A program made the translations under genes and the position numbers. Under the pieces are notes generated by a model, which worked only from the letters and a program-made list of their open reading frames with translations, was not told the origin of the DNA and made no database searches. This document shows, piece by piece, positions 13,696-27,843 of a DNA stretch of 64,000 nucleotides. Source of the stretch: Salisaeta longa DSM 21114 (GTDB taxonomy: Bacteria > Bacteroidota > Rhodothermia > Rhodothermales > Salinibacteraceae); the NCBI RefSeq assembly GCF_000419585.1, contig NZ_ATTH01000001.1:580005-644004 (forward strand). Reading direction: 5' to 3'. Position 1 is the first letter of the stretch. Every line of letters starts with the position of its first letter.

Positions 13696-14427
13696 TCACA
13701 CAAACGAATAGGGCGGCCATGGCCCCACCACATCTAAGCCGTTCAAACCGGGCACCGAAAGCCGAAGCGCCTCTTGACGAAAGGACTGAGCGTGCGCGCG
13801 TTGAATTAAGAAGGCGATAGATACGACGCTATGAGCCTTCCCCGCAACGCGTTTGGGGATTGATGTCGCCACCGTAAAGGCATCGAGCGCGCTGCGCACG
13901 TCCCCAACGATGCGGTGGGTGCTCGCTGAAAGCCCCGACCGTTCGCGTTGACGCCTAAGAAGGTAAGATGTGCCTGGCCGCTCGGCGGGAGCGCGACCGT
14001 CAGGGGCCTCGGCATCGTCGGGGGCAGTATCAGCCGGAACGAGGCGCATCCGAAGGCCCATTTCGGCACATCCCTCAAGAGCGTGCAGTTGCTCACGGTA
14101 GCGTTTTCCTTGGTCTTGCAACGCGTTCATTAACGCAGCGGCAGATGGCACGCAGGTGCCAAACTGCATGGGTAGTACCGTGCCACTTACAAATGCCGAC
14201 TCAACAACGTCTTTATAGAGGAGAAGCGTTTCTACAGAAGCCTCCTTGAGCCTGTTCGTATCCGAGACGGGTGAAACGACCGCTGCGAGTAGGTCGGTGT
14301 ATACTAGGTCCACCGGTTGCTCAAAAAGCCCCAAGCGCCCTGCAAGGGATTTTCTGTTGCTAAGGGTGCGTTTGAGGCCTAGCGCGTACAGCACAAGTGG
14401 CGTATCCGCAGCAGGCATTTGAGGCAT
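13696..14427 (-). CDS. gvpF: Gas vesicle protein GvpF/GvpL family (copy 1)
   Basis: 243 residues, last gene of the cluster. GvpF/L proteins are minor components thought to act in vesicle nucleation and to bind GvpA. Family features: an N-terminal LVLYALGLK strand like the LYLYAI start of copy 3, the central VLPMQFGTCVPSAAALMNAL block and the C-terminal ending GLNGLDVVGPWPPYSFV. The next GvpF/L gene ends only 11 bases upstream. The three copies are clearly divergent from each other. F versus L cannot be told from sequence by eye. Confidence 0.85.
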   Translation of the reverse strand: MPQMPAADTPLVLYALGLKRTLSNRKSLAGRLGLFEQPVDLVYTDLLAAVVSPVSDTNRLKEASVETLLLYKDVVESAFVSGTVLPMQFGTCVPSAAALMNALQDQGKRYREQLHALEGCAEMGLRMRLVPADTAPDDAEAPDGRAPAERPGTSYLLRRQRERSGLSASTHRIVGDVRSALDAFTVATSIPKRVAGKAHSVVSIAFLIQRAHAQSFRQEALRLSVPGLNGLDVVGPWPPYSFV

Positions 14428-14438
14428 GGCAGAAGGGC

Positions 14439-15233
14439 CTAGGTCTGTGACTGCTCATTGAGCGATGGCCGAAACGTGTAGGGCGGCCACGGTCCAGAGG
14501 GCGTTAAAGAGATCCCATCGTTCGCATATGCAGCGTCAAAGGCCTCGACTTGTTTGAGAAAGGATGCCTGATTGGTGGTGGGCACCAGCAAAGCCCAATG
14601 GGTGATGGGGGCTTCGGCAGGCGACTCGGGCGTGACCGATTGACGGACGGACGTGGCCCGCGCAAGCTCACTCAGCGCTTGCTCTATCTCGGTGAGGGTA
14701 TCGTCGATCCACGCATCGAGGGCAGTGTCCGCCTGCTGCGCCTGTTGGCGGCGTTGCAAGTACGCCGTTCCCGACAGCGGCTTTTCCGCCCGAGACGCGG
14801 ATGAAAGCTGCGCGCGCGCCTTCAGGGCTTGATCGCGGTCTAGGTGCACCTTCACCGACCACTCTTCGGTACCATGAACGGTTTCGAAGAAGGAACGCAG
14901 CTTATCTTTAGAAGAGTCGATAGACTGTTTCAGCGCATCGTGTGTTGAAAAGAGTGTCGCGAAGCGAGCGGGGTACGTGGGGCCGTGCTGCATCATCGCC
15001 TCCACTACCTGCTCGTGTGCAATGGCACGAGGGGCAACCCAGGACAACGCCTGTAGATTTTGTTCGCCGGTGGTACCTGTCCACTCGTCGCACGGCACTG
15101 CATCTACGACGGCTGTCCAGTCCGCATATTGCATTGTGCGCACGGCACCCGCTACGCCCGATGCAGAAATAGACACCGACGGGGCACCGGTGATGCCGTA
15201 CAAGTACAATGCATCGTTTGGTGAAGAAGGCAT
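14439..15233 (-). CDS. Gas vesicle protein GvpF/GvpL family (copy 2)
   Basis: 264 residues with the family start DALYLYGITGAP and end ISLTPSGPWPPYTFRPS. The middle block YPARFATLFSTHDALKQSID corresponds to the LPMAFGVI-type segment of copy 3, and VKVHLDRDQALKARAQL corresponds to the central strand of the domain. It is flanked by two other GvpF/L genes, 11 bases before copy 1 and 60 bases after copy 3. Probably a minor structural or nucleating subunit. Confidence 0.85.
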   Translation of the reverse strand: MPSSPNDALYLYGITGAPSVSISASGVAGAVRTMQYADWTAVVDAVPCDEWTGTTGEQNLQALSWVAPRAIAHEQVVEAMMQHGPTYPARFATLFSTHDALKQSIDSSKDKLRSFFETVHGTEEWSVKVHLDRDQALKARAQLSSASRAEKPLSGTAYLQRRQQAQQADTALDAWIDDTLTEIEQALSELARATSVRQSVTPESPAEAPITHWALLVPTTNQASFLKQVEAFDAAYANDGISLTPSGPWPPYTFRPSLNEQSQT

Positions 15234-15293: not shown

Positions 15294-16034
15294 TTAGGCC
15301 GCGTCGTATGCTACGTCTGCAAAGCTGTACGGGGCCATGGCATCGGTATACGTAAAGGTGAACGAGTCATCAAACGTTTGGGCAGCCCTGTGCACAGCCG
15401 CCTCAAAATCTGTGATGGCGGCCTCGGAGACCAAGCACGTGAGCCGTGCGACATCGGTTTCATCGCGTACCTCGTCGATCAGTACTTCATCGCACACCGG
15501 ATGTAGGTGCGACGTGATGGTTTGCTGGTGGCGGTGGCGCTCGTCGGCGCGCAGCGCCTCGAAGTGCTCGCCTAGTTCAATTTTATCTTGGCGGCTAACA
15601 GGGCCTTGCCCTCCAAACACAGCATCGCGCTGCGTGCGAAGTGCGTCGTGACGATTGACAAAGTGGGCAAAGATGTCGTCTACGTTCCAGGTTACACGCA
15701 CGCCGATTTCTACGCGGCCTTCGAGGGCATCGAGGCGCTCAAGAAACGGTGTGGCGTGTGCTGTTAAAAAGTCACGCACCTCGGCAGCGGAGGCAGCGAT
15801 CACGCCAAAGGCCATAGGCAGCACAGTGGTGGTGGCGTGAAGGCGCTTAATCACTGCGTGGTGCACTTTTAGGTTACGGCGCCTTGGGCGGGGCGTGCCG
15901 GCAGAGATGGGGCTGCAAACCACCGACAGCCCACCGCCGTTAACAAGACGCAATGCAGCGCCTTGGATGCCGGTACGGCCGTCGGGAAGCTCCGGCGTCG
16001 CTTGGGCGATAGCATACAGGTAAAGCGAAGACAT
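15294..16034 (-). CDS. Gas vesicle protein GvpF/GvpL family (copy 3)
   Basis: 246 residues; the most canonical of the three. It starts MSSLYLYAIAQATPELP, has the typical ATTVLPMAFGVIAASAAEVRDFL, the GRVEIGVRVTWNVDDIFAHF strand-helix, and ends DSFTFTYTDAMAPYSFADV. Family members bind GvpA and are required for vesicle nucleation in other organisms. It sits between the GvpV-like gene (48 bases upstream) and copy 2. Confidence 0.9.
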   Translation of the reverse strand: MSSLYLYAIAQATPELPDGRTGIQGAALRLVNGGGLSVVCSPISAGTPRPRRRNLKVHHAVIKRLHATTTVLPMAFGVIAASAAEVRDFLTAHATPFLERLDALEGRVEIGVRVTWNVDDIFAHFVNRHDALRTQRDAVFGGQGPVSRQDKIELGEHFEALRADERHRHQQTITSHLHPVCDEVLIDEVRDETDVARLTCLVSEAAITDFEAAVHRAAQTFDDSFTFTYTDAMAPYSFADVAYDAA

Positions 16035-16497: not shown

Positions 16498-17460
16498 TCA
16501 ACGGCCGGCAGAACGCAGGACCGTTTCCACAGCATCGTGGATGTGAGATGCTACATCGGCCGATGGGTCGGTTAACAGAGAGCGGCGGCTGGGACGCAAA
16601 ACATCGACGCAGGCAGCTCGAAATAGCGCGTTGGAGGCGTCGATGGCCTCCGTCCGGTCTGCAAAAATGCGAGCAAGCGCAATGGCCGGGCGAATCGACG
16701 GGCCGCGTTTCAACAGGCGGGCCTCGCGTAAGGTGCGCACAATATCGACGATGCAGGCCGCGTCCGTCTCGCTTATGCCAGCACGCGATTGTACAATGTC
16801 AACCTCAGCCGAGCGGCTCTGAAATTCCAGTTGAATAGTGATGAGGCGGTCGAGGAGCGCATTTTGCGACTTGTGCGTACCGGCATATTCTTCGGTGTTC
16901 GACGTAAAGATCGCGCGGAAGTTCGGGTGTACACGAATGTAACCGGTGCCCTCGCCAGCGCGAGACGGAAGGTTCAGTATGCGCTCTTCCAGAATGCTAA
17001 GCAGCACATTGTTGGCTTCGGCGCGTGAGCGGGTAAACTCATCGTAGATGAGAGTATATCCTTTGCGGCATGCCGTTGCCAGTCGGTTATCTTCCCAGAG
17101 GCGTTTCACCTGCTCGTCGGTCTTAAGGACCGAGCGAATAAAGTTGTCTACAACTTTAGACTTCCGGTACCCCACTTCTCCTCCTACCAAGTCGCTTCGT
17201 CCAAATTCGTCGTCGCCGTGCAAGAGTACAGCCGGCTGGTCGAGCTGTGCAGCGACATGAAAAGCGAGGCTGGTTTTGCCGGTACCCGCCACGCCGCTAA
17301 AGTGCACGGGGTAGCCCGCGTCCATATACGCCAATGCTCGGGCCGTCGTCCGTTGTACTTCCGGCGTCTGTACAAAGGAACGGCTAGGCACCGGCAAGAA
17401 GGCACCGTCCGTCTTCTGCGTGTGGATGGTTGTGGGCGTATGTTCTACGGCCTGTCGCAT
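16498..17460 (-). CDS. gvpN: Gas vesicle AAA+ ATPase GvpN
   Basis: 320-residue MoxR-type AAA+ ATPase that promotes gas-vesicle assembly or growth. Walker A is GVAGTGKTS at 56-64; Walker B is LIYDEF at 137-142; sensor-like FTSNTEEYAG follows near 210. GYPVHFSGVAGTGKTSLAFH and GRSDLVGGEVGYRKSKVVDN are characteristic of GvpN. It is 168 bases downstream of gvpA; the gap carries an inverted repeat that could lower expression of gvpN relative to gvpA. Confidence 0.95.
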   Translation of the reverse strand: MRQAVEHTPTTIHTQKTDGAFLPVPSRSFVQTPEVQRTTARALAYMDAGYPVHFSGVAGTGKTSLAFHVAAQLDQPAVLLHGDDEFGRSDLVGGEVGYRKSKVVDNFIRSVLKTDEQVKRLWEDNRLATACRKGYTLIYDEFTRSRAEANNVLLSILEERILNLPSRAGEGTGYIRVHPNFRAIFTSNTEEYAGTHKSQNALLDRLITIQLEFQSRSAEVDIVQSRAGISETDAACIVDIVRTLREARLLKRGPSIRPAIALARIFADRTEAIDASNALFRAACVDVLRPSRRSLLTDPSADVASHIHDAVETVLRSAGR

Positions 17461-17628: not shown

Positions 17629-17853
17629 CTATTGCGACGCCGGTGAGGCCGCCATCGCCGTCAGGCCAATGCCTTCGGCATACTTCAGGTATGTTTCGAC
17701 GGAGGCCACAACAATGCGCGCTTCAACGGAAACGAGTTCGATGCCCACCAACGAAACCCGGGCAAAAACATCGATGACGATTCCTTTGTCGAGAATGCGA
17801 TCAACAACTTCTGCCAAACCGCTTGCGTCTGTAGACTTTTGGACTTCAGCCAT
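17629..17853 (-). CDS. gvpA: Major gas vesicle protein GvpA
   Basis: 74 residues, the usual size of the structural shell subunit that forms the gas-permeable rib wall. The amphipathic core matches the family: [20 protein letters not shown], then [20 protein letters not shown], and [14 protein letters not shown] at the C-terminus. There is a single copy of canonical gvpA here; two further GvpA-superfamily genes (J and M/S types) lie upstream. A candidate promoter lies 90-115 bases upstream, so gvpA can be transcribed independently of the genes before it. Confidence 0.97.
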
Positions 17854-18134: not shown

Positions 18135-18539
18135 TTACCTTTTTTCCGGGTCGGGGGGATCCGTGTCGTCCGTTCTGTCCTGGTCAAGCGCATCGCTGAG
18201 GCGCGCAATTTGAGATTCTAGACGCTGCATGCGGTCATCAAGCGATTCAAGGCGCTGCGCCGTTTCAGCGCGCGGGGGGGAGGCCTCAGGATCGTTGGAG
18301 CTAAGGCGCCCATGATTGGCCGTTAGGTAATCGGCATGCCGCCACCAATCCATGCCCATCTCCTGGGCCTTATCCACCGAGCAAATGATGAGTCTGATTT
18401 GTATGGTAAGCAGCTCTACGTCGTTAAGGTTCACGCGGATGTCTCCGGCGACGACAATGCCAGTTTCCAGCACGCGCTCCAAGATGTCGGCGAGGGTATC
18501 GGAATTGGCGAGCGACGTACGGCGAGAAGAACGAGGCAT
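18135..18539 (-). CDS. gvpJ: Gas vesicle protein GvpJ-type
   Basis: 134 residues from the ATG at 18539 (MPRSSRRTS); a further ATG upstream would add an atypical leader. The GvpA-superfamily core is present: LADILERVLETGIVVAGDIR and VNLNDVELLTIQIRLIICSV, then DKAQEMGMDWW, which is typical of GvpJ. A 60-residue acidic C-terminal extension contains a short coiled-coil (RLESLDDRMQRLESQIARLS). GvpJ is a minor shell or nucleation component. It follows gvpK by 81 bases. Confidence 0.9.
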   Translation of the reverse strand: MPRSSRRTSLANSDTLADILERVLETGIVVAGDIRVNLNDVELLTIQIRLIICSVDKAQEMGMDWWRHADYLTANHGRLSSNDPEASPPRAETAQRLESLDDRMQRLESQIARLSDALDQDRTDDTDPPDPEKR

Positions 18540-18620
18540 GGCGGAGACGTAAGCAAAACGATAGAAGAACAATATTGGCGGCGGTTGCTGGTGTCAAGCA
18601 CAACAGCCCGCAAGCGGTGC

Positions 18621-18905
18621 TCACTCCATAGCACTGGTTTCAATAGTGCCCAGCGGGAGCGACAAGTCAGACGGACTGAGGTCGAACACCTCACACAAGT
18701 GCTCGATCTCTGCGGCTTGCTGTTGTAGCGCCTGGCCGAGCCGCTCAATTTCGTCATCGGTAAGCGTGCCATTGTCCATACGCCGAAGGGTTTGTTTTTC
18801 CAGCAGCTCATGGATCAGATTGATTACCGATAGCACAAGGTGGGCAAGACCGTTTGTGGTCGTGCCATCCGTTGTATTGGAGGGAAACGTGGGGTCATCA
18901 TTCAT
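18621..18905 (-). CDS. gvpK: Gas vesicle protein GvpK
   Basis: 94 residues. Family blocks: NGLAHLVLSVINLIHELLEK, RRMDNGTLTDDEIERLGQAL and the C-terminal DLSPSDLSLPLG. GvpK is required for vesicle formation in several organisms; its exact role is unclear. It sits between the M/S-type and J-type GvpA-superfamily genes, a common order in gvp clusters. Confidence 0.93.
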   Translation of the reverse strand: MNDDPTFPSNTTDGTTTNGLAHLVLSVINLIHELLEKQTLRRMDNGTLTDDEIERLGQALQQQAAEIEHLCEVFDLSPSDLSLPLGTIETSAME

Positions 18906-18963: not shown

Positions 18964-19206
18964 CTAGCCATTGGAAGGGGGCGCGGATGGTGAGGCATCG
19001 GTGTTGTCCGCATGATGCGGCGGGTGGGGGGCTTTAAGTGCGGTATCCACAGCGCTCACCAAAATGCGTACATCCAGGTACATCAGGTCAACATCCGCAA
19101 CGGTAAGTACCAAATCGCCACGGAGCACAGCGCCCTTATTCATGATGCGATCCAACGCTTCGGCAAGTTCGGTAGTGCGTGGGCGGTTAGGAGGAGCAGG
19201 GGGCAT
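18964..19206 (-). CDS. GvpA-superfamily minor protein (GvpM/GvpS-type)
   Basis: 80 residues from the ATG at 19206 (MPPAPPNRP). The core ELAEALDRIMNKGAVLRGDL and VLTVADVDLMYLDVRILVSA resembles the GvpM/GvpS branch of the GvpA superfamily, which lacks the [11 protein letters not shown] of GvpA itself. An acidic, Pro/Ser-rich tail follows. Probably a low-abundance subunit used for nucleation. It starts 23 bases after the ArsA-like gene stops, so the two are likely co-transcribed. Confidence 0.85.
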   Translation of the reverse strand: MPPAPPNRPRTTELAEALDRIMNKGAVLRGDLVLTVADVDLMYLDVRILVSAVDTALKAPHPPHHADNTDASPSAPPSNG

Positions 19207-19228
19207 AACACGTAGCGTGGCGTTGCAT

Positions 19229-21106
19229 TCATATTCGCGGAAATAGGTCGCGGCCGAGCTTCTGACAGGCCGATCGGCTGTCCGGCGGAGCACCTTCATG
19301 CACCACAGCGTGCGAAAGCGCTGCGTGACAGCGCCGGTAGTGATTCAAAACAACCGCATGCCTTGCGCGTCGCTTGGCCGCGGCATCCGTTGCGGCTACG
19401 CGGTTGATTACGAGAGGTCCTACCGGCAGGCCCAACGAGTGTGCGCGCTCGATCAGTGTTTCTGTTTCTGCGGCAGCTACCTCTGTTGGAAGGGTGACTA
19501 CCAGCAGCGTTGTTTCTTCTGAGCGCCGCATGTTCTTCTGCAATCGTTTGACCTGTTTCGACAGGTGTACCAGCCGGTCGGTAAGGCGCGGAAGATGGAG
19601 CACCGTACGGTACTTGCGCAAGATGCGGAAAAATGCTCGAATCCAAGATGCAAAGGCCCCCGGCATCTCTAGCAATCGCAGCAAGTGGCCCGTTGGAGCT
19701 GTATCTACAACACATGTAGTATACGGACGCTCGTCCATAAAATCCATGAGTGCCACGAGCCCCATCACCTCATCAATGCCGGGCGGCGCGAGATCCATGA
19801 GCGCGTTCATCACGGGCCGATCGTACGTGAGGTCGACGTCGGCGCCGCCTGTTCGATCGAAGAATTGACGAACTGCCTGTGCGTAGCGGCTGCGTAGCGA
19901 TTCAAACTGGGCCTCGGCGTCAATTTCGCAGGCCCAAAGCGTTTGTCCAATCGGCCTGGGGGTATGTTCTAAGGATTCGTCGAGCAACGAATGCAAGGAG
20001 TGGGCTGGGTCGGTAGAGGTCAGCAAAACGGGCCGGTTGGGAGTGCCCGCCGTTTCGGCCAACCGAAGAGCTGTTGCGGTAGCCATAGTGGTTTTGCCCA
20101 CCCCGCCCTTGCCGCCTACAAACACGAGAGAGCCCCGCGGGCATGCCACACTGAGGGACACCTTGGGCGGATGAGGCGGTGTCGTTGTAGGGGCAGACGC
20201 GATGCGGTCATAGGGTAAACGGGTTGTGTCTGACAACAAGTTGCGCAACCGCGCCGGCCCGCGCGGTTCTGGGTCGACAGCAGGTACAGTCCATACCGCA
20301 GACTGCCCTTGCACCGCCGAATGGTTTGCGAACGCCTTCAGACGCTGCCGGCCACCACTCGGTGGCCACTGGTTGAAAATGATATCTTGCACAACGATAT
20401 CGGCCATTTGAAGCTGTTGCACGATATGCTGCGTCTCGTGCAAGACGAGCGGTTCGGCTTGCGCAACGACGAAGAAACGGCACAGCGCCTCATCGCGAAA
20501 TGCATCACGCACGCGCTCCGCTTTGCTAAACATAGCGGCAACAAAGTCGTCCAGCGTATCGGATGCTCCGTTCCCAAACACCGACCGCATATAGCGGTGC
20601 TTGTCTAGCATCACGTCAAGCACGTTGACCCACGCACTAAACTGGTCGGGCGTATGAAGCAGCCGAAGTGTGTGACCGGTGGGAGCGGTGTCGACGACGA
20701 TGACACCATCGTCATCGTCCGCAAGCAGGTCGGCCAACCGTATAAAGGCCATCATCTCGTCGAGCCCCGGAAGCGACAGATCCAACAGACGCTCAATGTC
20801 GGTCGCATCGAAAAGGGTGCCCAGCCGAACAATTTCATGAAGCGTGGCGCGATGGGCCGCACGAAATGCGTCGAGCGCAGTATCGGCGCTGAACTCCTCT
20901 ACGGTCAGTGTATCTGGAAGCGCCGCTTCAGCCAAGCTGTCGCGCAGAGAGTGCGCCGGATCGGTCGACAGGAGGCGCACCGGGCCCTCATCTGCAAGCC
21001 GCAGGGCAGTAGCGGTCGCGATGGTCGTTTTGCCAACCCCGCCCTTACCGCCAAATAAGAGAAGTGCCGGGAGTGGAGCGGCGAGTGAAAAGGGCAGATG
21101 GTTCAT
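19229..21106 (-). CDS. Tandem ArsA/Get3-type ATPase in gas-vesicle cluster
   Basis: 625 residues made of two ArsA/Get3 ATPase halves. Deviant Walker A GGKGGVGKTT occurs at residues 19-28 and 331-340. VVDTAPTGH (the A-loop/switch II signature) occurs at 137-145 and 466-474. STDPAHSL occurs in both halves. Both nucleotide sites look intact. No arsenite-resistance genes and no obvious ArsA metal-binding Cys set are nearby. Get3-family proteins shield and deliver hydrophobic tail-anchored segments. In this operon, 20 bases after gvpG, a chaperone role for GvpA-family subunits is a reasonable inference, not proven. Confidence 0.9.
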   Translation of the reverse strand: MNHLPFSLAAPLPALLLFGGKGGVGKTTIATATALRLADEGPVRLLSTDPAHSLRDSLAEAALPDTLTVEEFSADTALDAFRAAHRATLHEIVRLGTLFDATDIERLLDLSLPGLDEMMAFIRLADLLADDDDGVIVVDTAPTGHTLRLLHTPDQFSAWVNVLDVMLDKHRYMRSVFGNGASDTLDDFVAAMFSKAERVRDAFRDEALCRFFVVAQAEPLVLHETQHIVQQLQMADIVVQDIIFNQWPPSGGRQRLKAFANHSAVQGQSAVWTVPAVDPEPRGPARLRNLLSDTTRLPYDRIASAPTTTPPHPPKVSLSVACPRGSLVFVGGKGGVGKTTMATATALRLAETAGTPNRPVLLTSTDPAHSLHSLLDESLEHTPRPIGQTLWACEIDAEAQFESLRSRYAQAVRQFFDRTGGADVDLTYDRPVMNALMDLAPPGIDEVMGLVALMDFMDERPYTTCVVDTAPTGHLLRLLEMPGAFASWIRAFFRILRKYRTVLHLPRLTDRLVHLSKQVKRLQKNMRRSEETTLLVVTLPTEVAAAETETLIERAHSLGLPVGPLVINRVAATDAAAKRRARHAVVLNHYRRCHAALSHAVVHEGAPPDSRSACQKLGRDLFPRI

Positions 21107-21126: not shown

Positions 21127-21372
21127 CTACGACTCAAGCGACGCGTCTATCGCATGAAGCTCATCGAGACGGTCAAGTATTTCTTCCTCGCGCGCGTCGA
21201 ACGTCTCTTCTTCTATCATTCCCATATCGAGTTGCATGTATAGGTCGTTTAGCTCGTCGCGCAGCGCGCGCTGTTCGCTCTCGATATGGTCTTCCGCTGC
21301 ATCATGAACGGCCTGCGCGATAAATGCAACGCCACGAACGGGAGCAAGCAAAATGTCATCAATTAAGAACAC
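21127..21372 (-). CDS. gvpG: Gas vesicle protein GvpG
   Basis: 81 residues, the usual size. It starts MFLIDDILLAPVRGVAFIAQ, characteristic of GvpG, followed by an acidic helical region ELNDLYMQLDMGMIEEETFD and EEEILDRLDELHAI. GvpG is a minor component thought to act with GvpF/L in nucleation. It is directly upstream of the ArsA-like gene with a 20-base spacer. Confidence 0.94.
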   Translation of the reverse strand: MFLIDDILLAPVRGVAFIAQAVHDAAEDHIESEQRALRDELNDLYMQLDMGMIEEETFDAREEEILDRLDELHAIDASLES

Positions 21373-22536: not shown

Positions 22537-23301
22537 TTAAGCAGCTTCGTGGGCATCTTCGAGCACAGAGGTGCCCAACGATTCCGACTTGGAGAAGCGC
22601 TGCGCGATCGATTGTAGCTTATGCTTCTGCTGATAAAAGGTACGCTCTACGGCCCGCAGACGCAAGCGCAACTGCTCGTTTTCTTCTTCGAGCGCCTCGT
22701 TTTCCTTCTGAAGCACCTCGTTTTCTTTCTGTACGTCGGGGCGGTGCTTTGCAAGATCGCGCAAAGACGACCGTAGCGCCTCAAGCGCTTGGTCCGGCGT
22801 CACCGCGTCCTCCGCTGTGCTCAGGTTGGCGGCATCCACATCTGGCTTCGAGGGGTCGGCCCAGAGCTCAAGCCGCAACTCGTCGAGCGCAGATTGTAGC
22901 ACACGCAGGGCCTCTTCCGGGGGCAAATTGTTGATGCCTGATGCCGGAACGGTTGTAGATTGGGACGGGGCTTGAGCCTTTTTTTCTGGAGCGCCTGCTC
23001 CGTACATCATGCTGCGGATTTGATCGAGCGCCTCCATAACCTCGCCGGTAACGGAAAGATGCTCGCGCGCTTGCTCCTTCTGATCGGCCTTCAGGGCGTG
23101 TATCTGCTTGCGCAAAGTTGCGATGGTGCCTACCGCATCGCCGATCTGTTCAACGCCGAGTGCCTGCAATCGCTTGTGCACATGGTAATGCGCCCGAAGC
23201 ACGCGCTTCATCGTGCGGATTTGTTGCAGTGCGCCGTCAGGATGCTTGGCGCCAAGCTCGCGGCATAGGATCTCGGAAACCGTGTGAGGGGAAGCAGACA
23301 T
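22537..23301 (-). CDS. Coiled-coil protein of the gas-vesicle cluster
   Basis: 254 residues from the ATG at 23301 (MSASPHTVSEI); an upstream ATG at 23376 overlaps the end of the PYP gene and is less likely. N-terminal 70 residues (CRELGAKHPDGALQQIRTMK, then ALGVEQIGDAVGTIATLRKQ) share the LGxxxPDxA...IRxM pattern with the repeats of the 1037-residue protein upstream. C-terminally there is a canonical coiled-coil with repeated ENE-L heptads (QKENEVLQKENEALEEENEQ). No enzyme motif. It is probably a structural or scaffold partner of the large protein. Confidence 0.75.
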   Translation of the reverse strand: MSASPHTVSEILCRELGAKHPDGALQQIRTMKRVLRAHYHVHKRLQALGVEQIGDAVGTIATLRKQIHALKADQKEQAREHLSVTGEVMEALDQIRSMMYGAGAPEKKAQAPSQSTTVPASGINNLPPEEALRVLQSALDELRLELWADPSKPDVDAANLSTAEDAVTPDQALEALRSSLRDLAKHRPDVQKENEVLQKENEALEEENEQLRLRLRAVERTFYQQKHKLQSIAQRFSKSESLGTSVLEDAHEAA

Positions 23302-23365
23302 GAAACCGCGTAGGTTGATGGAAGGGACATGTGTGCGCTCGCTAGACCCTACAAGCATGTTGCAG

Positions 23366-23905
23366 TTACACGCCACGCTTGCGTATCAAGATCCAATTGC
23401 GTCCTGAAGCGTCGCCACACATGCGCACATCAACGAGCGTTGGACGCATCTTGTACGTAAAAGTGTAAGTAAACGACTTGTCCAGGTTGCCGCTCCGGAT
23501 GCCTTCCTTAAACCTTCCGTAGAAGATACGGTTGTTGCTGCAAGGGGCCAGCTCGGTAAAAAAGTTTTTACCGTGCGCCTCTTCCGGTTCGATGCCCGCG
23601 AGATCCGATTCGTACTGATTGTAAAACGAAACGATGCCTTCGTTGTCAACCCTCACAATGCCGAAATCGGCTGCATGGAGTTGCTCCTCGCTGGCTTGGC
23701 GAAAGGTTTTTGTTATGTTTGGGCTATCAAAGGTAACAAGGGGGCGGGGGCCGGACCGGTCTTCCTCGGAGGCATGCTTTGAAGACGGCGGACGAGCTGC
23801 GCGTCGCTCAGCGGGAGATTCGCCCCCAGAGGCTGTAGACTCCTTTGTTTGTTGAGGAGAAAATCCTTTATCTTTGAGAAAGCTGTACAGACTTTGCGTG
23901 GACAT
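23366..23905 (-). CDS. pyp: Photoactive yellow protein (PYP) with N-terminal extension
   Basis: 179 residues: a 55-residue Ser/Glu/Arg-rich extension, then a full PYP-type PAS domain. Relative to Halorhodospira PYP numbering, Tyr42, Glu46 and the chromophore Cys69 align with Tyr95, Glu99 and Cys122, with identical spacing (Y to C 27, E to C 23 residues). Blocks GKNFFTELAPCSNN and FYGRFKEGIRSGNLDKSF are near-identical in pattern to PYP. Thr50 and Arg52 are replaced by Ala103 and Ile105, which may tune colour or kinetics. In the family the Cys binds p-coumaric acid and gives a blue-light photocycle. The chromophore genes (tyrosine ammonia-lyase, coumarate-CoA ligase) are not in this window. Confidence 0.93.
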   Translation of the reverse strand: MSTQSLYSFLKDKGFSPQQTKESTASGGESPAERRAARPPSSKHASEEDRSGPRPLVTFDSPNITKTFRQASEEQLHAADFGIVRVDNEGIVSFYNQYESDLAGIEPEEAHGKNFFTELAPCSNNRIFYGRFKEGIRSGNLDKSFTYTFTYKMRPTLVDVRMCGDASGRNWILIRKRGV

Positions 23906-23945
23906 ATGATCGCACCGACGTTAAGATGGCATGGCTTCACGCAAT

Positions 23946-23951
23946 ATTATA
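23946..23951 (-). promoter_or_regulatory. Possible pyp promoter -10 box
   Basis: Minus-strand TATAAT about 40 bases before the PYP start, in the 288-base gap after the large coiled-coil gene. The -35 region is not convincing. It suggests pyp may have its own promoter. Confidence 0.35.
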
Positions 23952-24019
23952 TGATCCAAAACTGTGCCAGCATGGGGATGCAAGAACGTGCGCTGCCGGT
24001 GTCTAGGTGTTGTTCTGTT

Positions 24020-24039
24020 CCGCTGTATGCCTACAGCGG
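24020..24039. terminator. Hairpin between the large coiled-coil gene and pyp
   Basis: Perfect 8-bp stem CCGCTGTA / TACAGCGG with a 4-base loop, within the gap between the large gene stop (24194) and the PYP start (23905). It could terminate or attenuate read-through into pyp. Confidence 0.4.
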
Positions 24040-24193
24040 TTTCTGGGGCATATGCCGCAATTTCCAACCGGCATTTGAGTCCCAAACGAGGCAAGGGTCT
24101 GACGGTGCGTTGCGAGGGCGCGTGGGCTCTTTGAAATAAATTACATCTTACATGAATAAAGCACCCATACAGAGGCCATAGTGCGAGGCAACG

Positions 24194-27100
24194 CTACATA
24201 GCTTCGAACAGCAGCCAGTTGGCTCTTTCATCGCTCGAACGGTACAGGTGCACGGTAAGAACGACCGGTGCGCGTCCGGGGCTGATGAACGTGTACGGGA
24301 AGCATGCGTCCATTGCCTTTTGTTGAACTCCTTTTTTGAAGCGCCCCAGGAATAAACTGTTTTTGGTGCTTGGGGCGAGGTCATCAAAAAAGTTTTTACC
24401 TGTCAGCGTCGTCTGGTTGTCCGCCTCTTTTAAACCAGGGAGCGAAAGAGCGTTCTCGTTGACAAACTGTATGCGTCCTTGATCGCTCAACTTAATGACC
24501 CCATAGGGAAGTGCGTCTAGGGCCGTGCTGTCGAGGGCGTCGAGCTGCTCAAGCGTTGCACGTTCGGCAAACTGCGGGGCGGCCTGGAAGACGAAGCCCG
24601 TGCCGTCACCGGACGCGTTGCGTTGCGTGCCCGAAGCGTCTGTTGATGATCCTGCGTCCTTCAAAGCACGCTCCTTAAGCAGCCGCACCCGGCTCACCAA
24701 TTTATCAAGGTCATCGGTTCCAATGATGCTTTCTATCCGCCGCAGCCACAGCTGGTACGTACCCTGTTCGCGCTGAAGCTGTTGGATGCGTCGTTCGAGG
24801 GTTTCAATTTCTGCAACGGCTTCGTCAATGCTGGTCATGCCTTTCGCAAAGAGCAGTTCTTTTGCTTCGTAAAAGGCATCAAGCTGCTCTTGCATGCTTT
24901 GCATCATGAGCTCGGTGTCTTCGTCGTTGAGGCTCTCGCCGTCATCGCCCGTCGTCCACTCGTCATACGGACGGCCTTCAGTCATGGAGTACACCTCCAT
25001 GAGCTGAGTAGAAAGCCCCTGGACCATCTCAACAATGGCATCGGCCGACGAGACGCCGATTTCGCGTTCTAGCAGCTCTTGTTCCGCGTAGAACGCCTCA
25101 AGCTGCTCGAAGTTATCTTGGCCCATGTCGTGTCTGTCAACGCGCCGCTGCACATTTTCTTTGTCCATGTACATTTCTTGCAGCTGCTGTTGCATGCTGT
25201 TTACCATGTCGATGGCATCAGCCACCGAGCGGACGCCGAGTTCTTCCAGGCGTTCTTGCTCGGTTTGCAGAATGTCTAGCTGCTCCTTCATGCGCAGCAC
25301 CTGTTTTGAGAGCTGCGACGCGTCTTTGGCGGTGCTCACGTTCAGCGCTTCTCGTATGTGGTGGAGGTGGCGCTTCGCCTTGCGAAGGGTGTTGCGCTCA
25401 TCTTTCAGCGCGCGAAGACGGTCGCTGGTGCGGTCGATAAGGTCGTCCAGCTGCTCGGCCGGTGGTTGCCCATCGCGCTGCAGCGAAGCGTTGCCTGCAT
25501 CCAGCAAGGTGTTGGTGTGGTTGCTGAGCGCCTGAATGCCCGCCATGAGCGTTGATGCCTGTGCAGGAGGGGCTCCCAACCGCTTGCCAAGGTGGTTCAG
25601 GGCTTCAGCAACCTCCGGGGCGTCGTCTAACACAAGCGCAGATGCTGGAGTCGCCCCGGAGGAGGCTTCCGAACGATCTATGTTCCTGTATAAATCTACC
25701 AGTTGCTCTTCCATGCTATCGATCATAGCAAGCGCAGCATCCACGTCACTGATGTTATGATGCTGCAGTTTTTCCTGCTCTTGCGCGAGGTGCTCCATCC
25801 GGGCTGTAACATTGTGCACCAAAGCTTCCAATTCGCGCGCCTGCTCTGGGGTCGTAACCCCAAGGATTTCATGAACTTCGTCCGTAACTGCTGTAGAGGA
25901 AGGGGGATTGTCTAGCGCATCATTCTCCAGCGCATCATTCTCCTCTTCATCCACTGTCAGGTACAAGTCCACCAGTTGCTCCTCCATCGTATCGATGAGC
26001 GCCCGCATGGTCGGTGCGTGAGAAGAAGATTCATGGGTTGCAGCAGGTTCTGGTGTTTCCAACAGCGCGTGAATGTGCGTACCCATGCGGTGCAGCTGCT
26101 CGCGCAGCGCGCGCGCTTCGTCGGGCGTATGTGCACCCAGGATGTGCTGTATTTCCTCAAGAACGGCATCAGACGCGGCTGACGAAGCCTCCAGATCTGC
26201 CTCTCGCTCCTCATAAAGAGCAGCGAGCTGCTCTTCCAGGCTTTGTATCATGGTAAGTATGTCGTCGGCGTCTTCTAAGCCGGTTTCATTGGAGAGATGC
26301 TTCTTGTGATTGGAAAGGACGTGCAGGTTATCGGACATGCGTCGCACCGTTTGGGCGAGAGCGTCGACCTCTGCCGCATTCGACACGCCAAGAGTGTCCT
26401 CTATAACCTTTGGAAGCGTCGCGTCCCCTTGGTCGCGCTGCTCGTAAAGGTCTACGAGCTGCTGCTCCATGTTTGTAATCATGTCGAGCAGGTCGTCGGC
26501 TGTGTCGACGCCTACCTCCGCGGTGATCTGCTCCTTTGCGGCCAGCAGGTCATCAAGGTGGCGTTGCATGCCTCGCACCTTCTGGGCTAGGTTACGTGCC
26601 TCCTCGGGCGTGCGTATCCCAAGGACAGACGTGGTGGCGTCGAGGAGGGCGCGGGTCTCTTTATCAATGGAGCGCGTGCGCAGCGCATCTCGCTCTTCGC
26701 GTAATGTATCTACTTGCTCTTTTAGGGTTGCGCGTTCTTTCGTCAGCCGGTCTACACGCTCGCGCAGGGCCTGCTGTGTCTGTTCGGCTTCGTTTAGACG
26801 TTCCTGCAGCGCATGGATCTCGTCCAGGGCCTCTTCGGTGCTCGACCAGCCAGCTGCTGCAAGGCGCTCTTTTTCATCATACAGAGTCTCAACTTGTCTT
26901 TGCAGGCTCTCAACACGTGCTTGCACTTCCTCCAGGCTATTCACGTCAAGGTTGTCCATCAGTTGGTTGACCTCAACGTGAAGCGTATCCATCTCGGATG
27001 CACTGCCCTCAGCTTCCAGGCGCTCTAATAGGGCCGCATTGCGATCGCGGAGCGTTTCGAGCTTGTGCTGCATTCGTTGCAACACTTCCTCAACGTCGTA

Positions 27101-27307
27101 TACGCTCACCAGGCCATCGGAAGAGGCGTGGGGGGCCTCGGGGTCCGGCACGTTTGTTTGAGCGCGTAGCATGCGCACCTTGGTGACTACTGCATCAGGC
27201 GAATCCGCGCCAAGCATTTCGCACAGCTGCTTCCAGGGTTTTGTGGAGGATGCGCTTTCACTTGAATGGTTGGGATGGGGCGTACTCGAATCGTGCTGTG
27301 TAGCCAT
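24194..27307 (-). CDS. Large repeat coiled-coil protein with C-terminal PYP-like PAS domain
   Basis: 1037 residues from the ATG at 27307 (MATQHDSST); an upstream ATG at 27403 would add an unlikely leader. Most of the protein is coiled-coil built from about 75-100-residue units: an LGxxTPEEARxLxxxVxxM helix followed by a DDxLxMIxSMEEQLVDLY helix. At least eight copies of the second motif are visible (for example MEQQLVDLY, LEEQLAALY, MEEQLVDLY twice, MQEQLDAFY). The last 125 residues are a PYP-like domain (GVIKLSDQGRIQFVN, GKNFFDDLAPSTKN, FLGRFKKGVQQKAM). The chromophore Cys is Ser, and the Tyr42 and Glu46 positions are Val and Ala, so it should not bind p-coumarate. First gene of the cluster. 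Confidence 0.85.
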   Translation of the reverse strand: MATQHDSSTPHPNHSSESASSTKPWKQLCEMLGADSPDAVVTKVRMLRAQTNVPDPEAPHASSDGLVSVYDVEEVLQRMQHKLETLRDRNAALLERLEAEGSASEMDTLHVEVNQLMDNLDVNSLEEVQARVESLQRQVETLYDEKERLAAAGWSSTEEALDEIHALQERLNEAEQTQQALRERVDRLTKERATLKEQVDTLREERDALRTRSIDKETRALLDATTSVLGIRTPEEARNLAQKVRGMQRHLDDLLAAKEQITAEVGVDTADDLLDMITNMEQQLVDLYEQRDQGDATLPKVIEDTLGVSNAAEVDALAQTVRRMSDNLHVLSNHKKHLSNETGLEDADDILTMIQSLEEQLAALYEEREADLEASSAASDAVLEEIQHILGAHTPDEARALREQLHRMGTHIHALLETPEPAATHESSSHAPTMRALIDTMEEQLVDLYLTVDEEENDALENDALDNPPSSTAVTDEVHEILGVTTPEQARELEALVHNVTARMEHLAQEQEKLQHHNISDVDAALAMIDSMEEQLVDLYRNIDRSEASSGATPASALVLDDAPEVAEALNHLGKRLGAPPAQASTLMAGIQALSNHTNTLLDAGNASLQRDGQPPAEQLDDLIDRTSDRLRALKDERNTLRKAKRHLHHIREALNVSTAKDASQLSKQVLRMKEQLDILQTEQERLEELGVRSVADAIDMVNSMQQQLQEMYMDKENVQRRVDRHDMGQDNFEQLEAFYAEQELLEREIGVSSADAIVEMVQGLSTQLMEVYSMTEGRPYDEWTTGDDGESLNDEDTELMMQSMQEQLDAFYEAKELLFAKGMTSIDEAVAEIETLERRIQQLQREQGTYQLWLRRIESIIGTDDLDKLVSRVRLLKERALKDAGSSTDASGTQRNASGDGTGFVFQAAPQFAERATLEQLDALDSTALDALPYGVIKLSDQGRIQFVNENALSLPGLKEADNQTTLTGKNFFDDLAPSTKNSLFLGRFKKGVQQKAMDACFPYTFISPGRAPVVLTVHLYRSSDERANWLLFEAM
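25913..25942 (-). repeat. 15-base tandem duplication in coiled-coil gene
   Basis: AGCGCATCATTCTCC occurs twice in tandem and encodes the duplicated acidic segment ENDALENDALD in the inter-repeat linker of the large coiled-coil protein. It suggests recent slippage in a linker. Confidence 0.6.
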
Positions 27308-27843
27308 TGGCTTGTGCGTTTGGGTAGAAAACTTGTGGCCGCTGGTTAAGCCCGCATCTGGGTGCGACTGGCTGCTTCTGGGTGCGATTAACTGTGCCCA
27401 CACCGATGGCCACGCGGCGTGCTAGCGGTGTCGTATGCGTTGCTGGAGCATTGGGGTAATGCTTCCGCTACAGCTGCAACGTAGGGGTTTTGAATACAAG
27501 GAGCATAGGTGCTGGCCGATACCCGCTCAAGCACCGGACCGATGCATGGGCAGCAAGTGGGTAGCAATCATCAGCGTACGGGATTGTCGCTTCCAGTTTA
27601 CAATAAACTACAACAAAAAACATACCTTCTCAGCGTTCGCTTCTATATTAGAATTTTCTGCCCACCGGATGAGGGGGCATGTGAATGCCCAAGAAGCTGT
27701 TGGGCGAGCGTCAATTAATGAGGATTGATCATCAGATCGCTCCGTCTTCTTAGGCGCACCCTCCTCTTGGAACAGAGGCGGCGGGCAGAAGGGGCGTAGA
27801 GAAGTGCTTGCCGAATCGTCTTAGCGACACACTTCACAGTGCG

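Follow-up and report, generated by a model that had tools for sequence, protein, structure and literature searches.

The stretch of DNA analyzed here (hereafter the window) comprises 64,000 nucleotides of Salisaeta longa DSM 21114, whose 3.4-Mb genome (G000) is assembled in 3 contigs and which shares the GTDB family Salinibacteraceae with Longimonas, Salinivenus and Salinibacter. Between positions 13696 and 27403, it carries a gas-vesicle (gvp) cluster together with a gene for a photoactive yellow protein (PYP) and genes for coiled-coil proteins, all on the minus strand (Table 1). The gvp genes encode three GvpL/F proteins, a GvpN-type AAA protein, GvpA, two GvpA/J-like proteins, GvpK, GvpG and an ArsA-type ATPase. 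The locus thus combines GvpA with GvpF/L, G, J, K and N and qualifies as a gas-vesicle cluster, with GvpN being assigned by its AAA domain and its position; GvpO was not seen in the cluster. The placement of the PYP among gvp genes of the same strand, pointed out in a preliminary description of this DNA, is borne out by Pfam and NCBIfam matches. No kinase, transcription-factor or c-di-GMP domain was found in the gvp cluster. A scan for promoters and terminators gave counts close to the shuffled expectation and did not indicate an operon boundary. The 326-aa coiled-coil protein has homologs adjoining GvpG in the gvp clusters of three relatives (G001, G004, G023) and is perhaps an unnamed gvp component.

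Table 1 Features of the gvp cluster, the PYP gene and the neighbouring coiled-coil genes in the window.
Feature	Position	Strand	Evidence or remark
GvpF/L	13696..14427	-	PF06386 1.1e-38
GvpF/L	14439..15233	-	PF06386 5.2e-50
GvpF/L	15294..16034	-	PF06386 1e-55
Helical gvp-cluster protein, 112 aa	16083..16421	-	homologs in the corresponding position in G001, G004, G023
GvpN-type AAA ATPase	16498..17460	-	PF07728 1.6e-15; GvpN name from context
GvpA, main shell protein	17629..17853	-	NF006874 3.9e-36, over cut-off
GvpJ-like	18135..18572	-	PF00741 1.7e-14; nearest halo_gas_GvpJ
GvpK	18621..18905	-	PF05121 4e-27
GvpA/J/M-like	18964..19299	-	PF00741 1.5e-12
ArsA-type double ATPase	19229..21106	-	PF02374 2.2e-93; conserved in these gvp clusters
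GvpG	21127..21372	-	PF05120 4.9e-19
Coiled coil + helix-hairpin-helix protein, 326 aa	21505..22485	-	HHH_5 6.9e-9
Coiled-coil protein, 279 aa, directly after PYP; likely ATG near 23301	22537..23376	-	homologs after PYP in G001, G004
PYP, 179 aa	23366..23905 (start 23905, end 23366)	-	TIGR02373 9.4e-32; gapless active-site match to H. halophila PYP
Codon of Cys122 (= Cys69, chromophore attachment)	23540..23542	-	alignment
Codon of Glu99 (= Glu46)	23609..23611	-	alignment
Codon of Tyr95 (= Tyr42)	23621..23623	-	alignment
LYSFLK motif, PYP N-terminus; conserved as L[YF]S[FY]L in long-cassette PYPs	23873..23890	-	N-terminal comparison
Coiled-coil protein with C-terminal blind PYP domain, 1069 aa; likely ATG near 27307	24194..27403	-	TIGR02373, profile A2, AF2
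Blind PYP domain, ~ residues 952-1065	24209..24550	-	TIGR02373 2.1e-15; residue table; AF2 model
Stretch with six profile-A2 matches	24764..26584	-	24764-24922, 24983-25108, 25157-25291, 25676-25798, 26198-26341, 26432-26584

In the 179-residue PYP, an acidic N-terminal extension of low complexity precedes the domain that should hold the chromophore (approximately residues 57-176). The protein matches the PYP model TIGR02373 over 120 residues and the solved PYPs of the PDB with an E-value of 1.3e-28 (~1e-28 to the PYP of Halorhodospira halophila). The alignment to H. halophila PYP runs without gaps from residue 57 to ~166 at an offset of 53, with 43% identity in the core domain, and pairs Y42 with Y95, E46 with E99, T50 with A103, R52 with I105 and C69 with C122. 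It upholds the preliminary description with respect to the match across the PAS domain, the identical spacing of the Tyr/Glu/Cys triad and the replacement of Thr50 and Arg52 by Ala and Ile. These two replacements are not peculiar to the window, since position 50 is S or A and position 52 is V, I, M or L in every Salinibacteraceae PYP examined. The TIGR02373 score of 109.7 bits lies below the equivalog cut-off of 143.05, which we did not take as defining a PYP because, of the PYP homologs identified by BLAST, the model recovered no more than 20% (PMC9664959). Judging from the PYP-type PAS domain and the presence of Cys69, Tyr42 and Glu46, the sequence confirms that the open reading frame encodes a member of the PYP family, and this protein is very probably photoactive. 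The LYSFLK peptide at its N-terminus is a possible docking peptide; in PYPs of the long type, the corresponding L[YF]S[FY]L motif sits on an acidic linker.

Binding of p-coumarate, as anticipated in the preliminary description, would agree with the Y/E/C triad and with the gene content of S. longa. A single aromatic amino acid lyase is present in the genome (PF00221, 2.5e-125), and its selectivity site bears an H-H-L motif, as in tyrosine lyases. Family models rank this enzyme highest as a histidine lyase, yet under their cut-off. Moreover, an AMP-binding, 4-coumarate-ligase-like gene adjoins the second PYP pair of S. longa (G000:C1:282675 and 283237). The window PYP would be expected to bind its chromophore.

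The gene directly upstream of pyp encodes a 1069-aa coiled-coil protein that the preliminary description did not mention and that outranks the gvp placement in novelty. Co-transcription of the two genes is uncertain owing to a gap of 288 bases between them. The C-terminal domain of the 1069-aa protein retains the PYP fold and carries V, A and S in place of Y42, E46 and C69. Given these replacements, it should be unable to hold a chromophore in the fashion of a PYP, and we refer to it as blind. An AF2 model of the last 350 residues shows helices followed by a well-predicted PAS fold, with a pLDDT of ~85-94 over most of this fold, and the best PDB matches of the modeled blind domain are PYPs (E 1.4e-11, TM-score of 0.88 by target length, 26-28% identity). 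Cys69 is the defining residue of the PYP family (PMC9664959). The domain is therefore PYP-like and not a PYP, having the fold but Ser at this position. Further upstream in the protein, six stretches match profile A2 (described below; best match 2.0e-14), which, together with the adjacency to PYP, makes it a member of the coiled-coil family defined by this profile. In Pfam and NCBIfam, the coiled-coil proteins of the window did not match GvpC models, the partner proteins among them did not match MCP, kinase or GGDEF models, and the proteins of the cassette showed no recognisable output domain of enzymatic or DNA-binding type.

A remnant of a second PYP was suspected in the gap between the two genes (23906-24193), because three relatives (G001, G003, G004) carry two PYPs. 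The gap contains stops in all three frames and no PYP-like sequence by eye. In these relatives, the two PYPs stand in tandem after the long coiled-coil gene (L038, L041, L042), where the window has one. Position 42 is Phe in one tandem copy and Tyr in the other in G003 and G004, a difference that may provide two colours or speeds.

Pairs of a PYP and a blind PYP domain recur across the family. TIGR02373 matches were obtained in 20 of 27 Salinibacteraceae genomes, about two of them being weak, partial PAS matches. C69 and E46 are present in all the single-domain PYPs, position 42 being Y or F, and many of these PYPs adjoin a coiled-coil protein with a PYP domain in which none of the three chromophore residues is left. 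At position 69, every one of the 24 coiled-coil PYP-like domains has S, G or A instead of Cys. Two cassette types can be distinguished by their coiled-coil protein, a long one (780-1225 aa, C69S) and a short one (350-630 aa, C69G/A), and eight genomes, S. longa included, contain both. The PYPs of the short type form a supported clade (95/92), as do the blind domains of this type (91/89), and the distance matrices of neighbouring PYPs and blind domains correlate with an r of 0.42 (permutation p 0.0002). At the level of sequence, the two cassette types thus show paired inheritance, with a mirror-tree signal that is partly that of the species tree.

An earlier survey (PMC9664959) had led us to expect that the proteins of 560-630 aa beside the second PYPs would be chemoreceptors. 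This identity was rejected, as the S. longa protein gave a TIGR02373 match and, apart from that, hits to generic coiled-coil models alone; its counterparts in relatives match the coiled-coil PYP-like protein of the window. S. longa possesses further coiled-coil/blind-PYP proteins without a neighbouring PYP, one at L036:9745-11475 (G000:C1 ~2.30 Mb) and one at L037:17522-19105 (G000:C2 ~149 kb, on a 151-kb contig), the latter being followed by a relative of the 279-aa protein. At L051 and L058 (G017, G021), the PYP is flanked by two different coiled-coil/blind-PYP proteins, of which the downstream ones align with H or Q at position 46 and form their own clade.

The coiled coil extends well beyond this family. 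Scanning genome contigs with a PYP alignment (A1) yielded 79 PYP loci, and in many phyla a small protein of 59-260 aa adjoins PYP and follows the pattern SLEEQLxxLYxEKExLExxLGxSxxxxIIxMVRSLEEQLxxLY. Profile A2 was built from ten such small partners from Kapabacteria, Leptospirales, Planctomycetes and UBP17, none of them from Salinibacteraceae. At the 79 loci, 36 of the 7741 open reading frames match the coiled-coil profile, 32 of them within 400 bases of PYP; at L122, coiled coil and PYP are fused in a single open reading frame. Profile A2 matches nine of the 394 genomes of the window's phylum, and all nine belong to the 13 PYP carriers (Fisher/hypergeometric ~1e-15, or 4e-11 without the family supplying training rows, both uncorrected for kinship). 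Within the S. longa genome, its matches are confined to the 1069-aa protein, the coiled-coil protein beside the second PYP and two more proteins with PYP-like domains. The same three of 18 Leptospirales genomes carry both PYP and the coiled-coil gene, in adjacent positions, and one of the three lies outside the training set. A profile made from Kapabacteria only matched 29 open reading frames in other groups. Reversed open reading frames gave 0 matches and heptad-preserving shuffles 1 in 720; together with the whole-genome specificity, these decoys rule out a generic heptad artefact. Around half of the 79 loci, mainly from Gammaproteobacteria, Campylobacterota and other Spirochaetota, have no coiled-coil neighbour.

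The association of the coiled-coil gene with PYP is thus directly observed, and judging from these sequence comparisons the coiled coil is likely to be a true partner of PYP. Co-inheritance of conserved neighbours does not require that they bind each other, and within single lineages it explains the linkage just as well as a function would. The recurrence across phyla argues for a function, to which horizontal transfer of PYP plus its neighbour could have contributed. For L115, in which coiled coil and PYP are naturally fused, AF2 predicts a helical hairpin and a PYP fold; at a pTM of 0.58, this model says nothing about docking. The main text of two PYP genomics surveys does not mention a coiled-coil neighbour, which may nonetheless have been noticed elsewhere. 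A second neighbour of PYP, a helical protein or domain of ~155 aa with the pattern LWLELKxEWxRxNxxMNYxLI, recurs at L110, L121, L123, L129, L132, L138 and L139, and two examples of it (L132:10368-10850 and in the L199 region) had no match in Pfam.

We also followed the linkage between PYP and gvp beyond the window. In Salinibacteraceae, GvpF was found in G000, G001, G003, G004 and G023, besides weak, large GvpF-like proteins in G024-G026. The long cassette is contiguous with gvp in the window and lies 4.6 kb from gvp, in divergent orientation, in G001. In G003, its distance to a lone GvpF gene is 1.5 kb, and G004 carries cassette and gvp on different contigs. The lone GvpF of G003 (L041:14158-15006) is the sole gvp gene in the 60 kb analyzed around it and is probably the remnant of a lost gvp cluster. 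G023 possesses gvp without the long cassette, and four relatives (G017, G018, G020, G021) possess the long cassette without a GvpF gene in the genome, so gvp is not the sole output of the cassette. GvpF-like domains with low scores also occur in proteins of 455-790 aa in genus g9 (G024, G025, G026), where no PYP lies beside them, and at L182/L184 (G441).

Outside Salinibacteraceae, two of 48 PYP genomes gave a GvpF match, one from Silvanigrellales (G427) with a full cluster and one from Gemmatimonadaceae with a weak, large GvpF-like protein only. In G427, PYP and its coiled-coil gene are accompanied by an aromatic lyase and an AMP-binding ligase, at a distance of 3.3 kb from gvpA. A search of 385 alphaproteobacterial genomes showed gvp in a single PYP carrier (G723); here, pyp, a 94-aa open reading frame, an AMP-binding gene and gvpA stand in a row on one strand, with gvp within 1.6 kb of PYP. 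Outside Salinibacteraceae, G427 and G723 are the two genomes found to combine PYP with a gvp cluster, and in both the linkage is within ~3 kb. Plasmid records added nothing further on gvp. The loci of G001, G427 and G723 rule out that the linkage is unique to the window. According to PMC3646047, PYP lies near gvp in Rhodobacter capsulatus and Loktanella, the former stated in a passage citing Kyndt et al. 2004, and a table of PYP functions, of ambiguous layout, lists gas vesicles/cell buoyancy for Burkholderia, Haliangium, Curvibacter and Rhodobacter (PMC6273459). The placement is therefore recurrent and already noticed, and the idea of a PYP acting on gas vesicles is not new. The PYPs of relatives also lie near gvp (G001, G003), a point on which the preliminary description had made its proposal of blue-light control of buoyancy depend. 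This proposal stands in part: the recurrent linkage speaks for it, the four relatives with a cassette and no gvp and the reverse case of G023 against it.

With this information at hand, we propose a blue-light module consisting of a p-coumarate-binding PYP and a dedicated coiled-coil partner to which it would bind. In the window, repeated helical units would form the long rod of the partner, at whose end sits a PYP domain devoid of a chromophore site. In the current view of H. halophila PYP, its N-terminal cap unfurls during signalling and thereby exposes the beta scaffold to a partner of unknown identity (PMC11003764). Release of the cap by light, established for H. halophila PYP, would likewise take place in the window PYP, and the exposed PAS surface and the LYSFLK peptide would alter the contact with the blind PYP domain and the coiled coil through PAS-PAS pairing. 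The altered contact may change the scaffold and, as a local output, control the formation or clustering of gas vesicles at the protein level and thereby buoyancy. An output at the protein level appears most likely because the gvp cluster headed by the module is devoid of kinase, transcription-factor and c-di-GMP domains. Since enzymatic or DNA-binding output domains were not recognised in the cassette proteins, we infer a scaffold role in gas-vesicle assembly or clustering in preference to transcriptional control. That the coiled coil also occurs fused to PYP and in proteins as short as 59 aa suggests that it is the constant element of such modules and the blind domain an addition specific to Salinibacteraceae.

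The weakest link of this proposal is the gas-vesicle output, since four relatives retain the cassette in the absence of gvp. These genomes, and G023 as their counterpart, would fit a general light-response module, serving for example phototaxis or surface behaviour, whose position beside gvp is accidental. The second PYP pair of S. longa, which sits away from gvp (L035), and the PYPs of Leptospira, which adjoin chemoreceptors (PMC9664959), are in line with such a module. An accidental position is difficult to reconcile with a linkage that recurs in three separate phyla, that is tight in both PYP- and gvp-bearing genomes outside Salinibacteraceae, that is kept in G000 and G001 despite a change of orientation, and that has parallels in the further genera listed with gas vesicles (PMC6273459). 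Weighing these points, we consider a general module rather unlikely. Alternatively, the 1069-aa and 279-aa proteins could be gas-vesicle accessories, i.e. reinforcing rods similar to GvpC, with the blind PYP domain as a mere docking handle. GvpC is a helical repeat protein, and both genes are contiguous with gvp on one strand. The same coiled-coil family, however, adjoins PYP in phyla in which GvpF was not found (46 of the 48 genomes) and is present in Salinibacteraceae relatives without gvp, and the GvpC models remained unmatched, which makes accessory rods improbable.

The PYP itself might be an inactive relic or a PAS domain responding to redox state or a ligand rather than to light, as its score below the equivalog cut-off and the residues A50 and I52, unlike those of H. 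halophila, could indicate. Against this stand the whole domain with its complete triad, the ligase-like gene and the aromatic lyase with its H-H-L motif, and the photoactivity of the PYP of Salinibacter ruber from the same family (432 nm, recovery ~1 h; PMC12826048), so that we regard a loss of light sensing as very improbable. In our view, a module of PYP and coiled-coil partner with a gas-vesicle output is the best explanation and a fairly probable one; for an involvement of gas vesicles in the output of S. longa taken separately, we see slightly better than even chances.

The module resembles several known systems in part. The PYP of S. ruber, a clade B PYP, belongs to the same bacterial family and shares the Y/E/C triad, and the PYPs of related Salinibacter genomes have S/A at position 50, I/V at position 52 and an N-terminal motif of the PYSYL type. 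In contrast to the window, genomes of the S. ruber type carry their PYP outside gvp and without an adjacent coiled-coil partner. The R. capsulatus locus likewise has the PYP gene beside a gvp cluster, and G723 shows a similar row. This arrangement differs in the type of PYP, as the second PYP of G723 exceeds the TIGR02373 cut-off, and a coiled-coil or blind PYP partner was not seen in G723. PYP-chemoreceptor pairs and MCP-PYP fusions (PMC9664959, PMC12826048) share with the window a single-domain PYP and an adjacent or fused elongated helical partner, whereas partners of the window type lack MCP, kinase and GGDEF matches and carry PYP domains without Cys69. In CetB/CetA of Campylobacter (PMC9664959), the sensor PAS and the output protein are also encoded by separate adjacent genes; CetA is a chemoreceptor signalling domain, while the window partner combines a coiled coil with a degenerate sensor-domain copy.

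After four decades of study, the signalling partner of PYP is unknown (PMC11003764). The short coiled-coil gene that accompanies PYP from phylum to phylum provides a concrete candidate for light-dependent binding to PYP. Tentatively, and with somewhat less than even chances for the whole, this coiled-coil family may be the missing partner of such single-domain PYPs, with its fusion to a blinded duplicate in Salinibacteraceae docking the PYP as one half of a heterodimer and, in S. longa, placing gas vesicles under the control of light. A sensor and its blind mate on separate polypeptides offer a natural optogenetic pair, and the recurrent adjacency to gvp makes light-controlled buoyancy testable in bacteria of three phyla.
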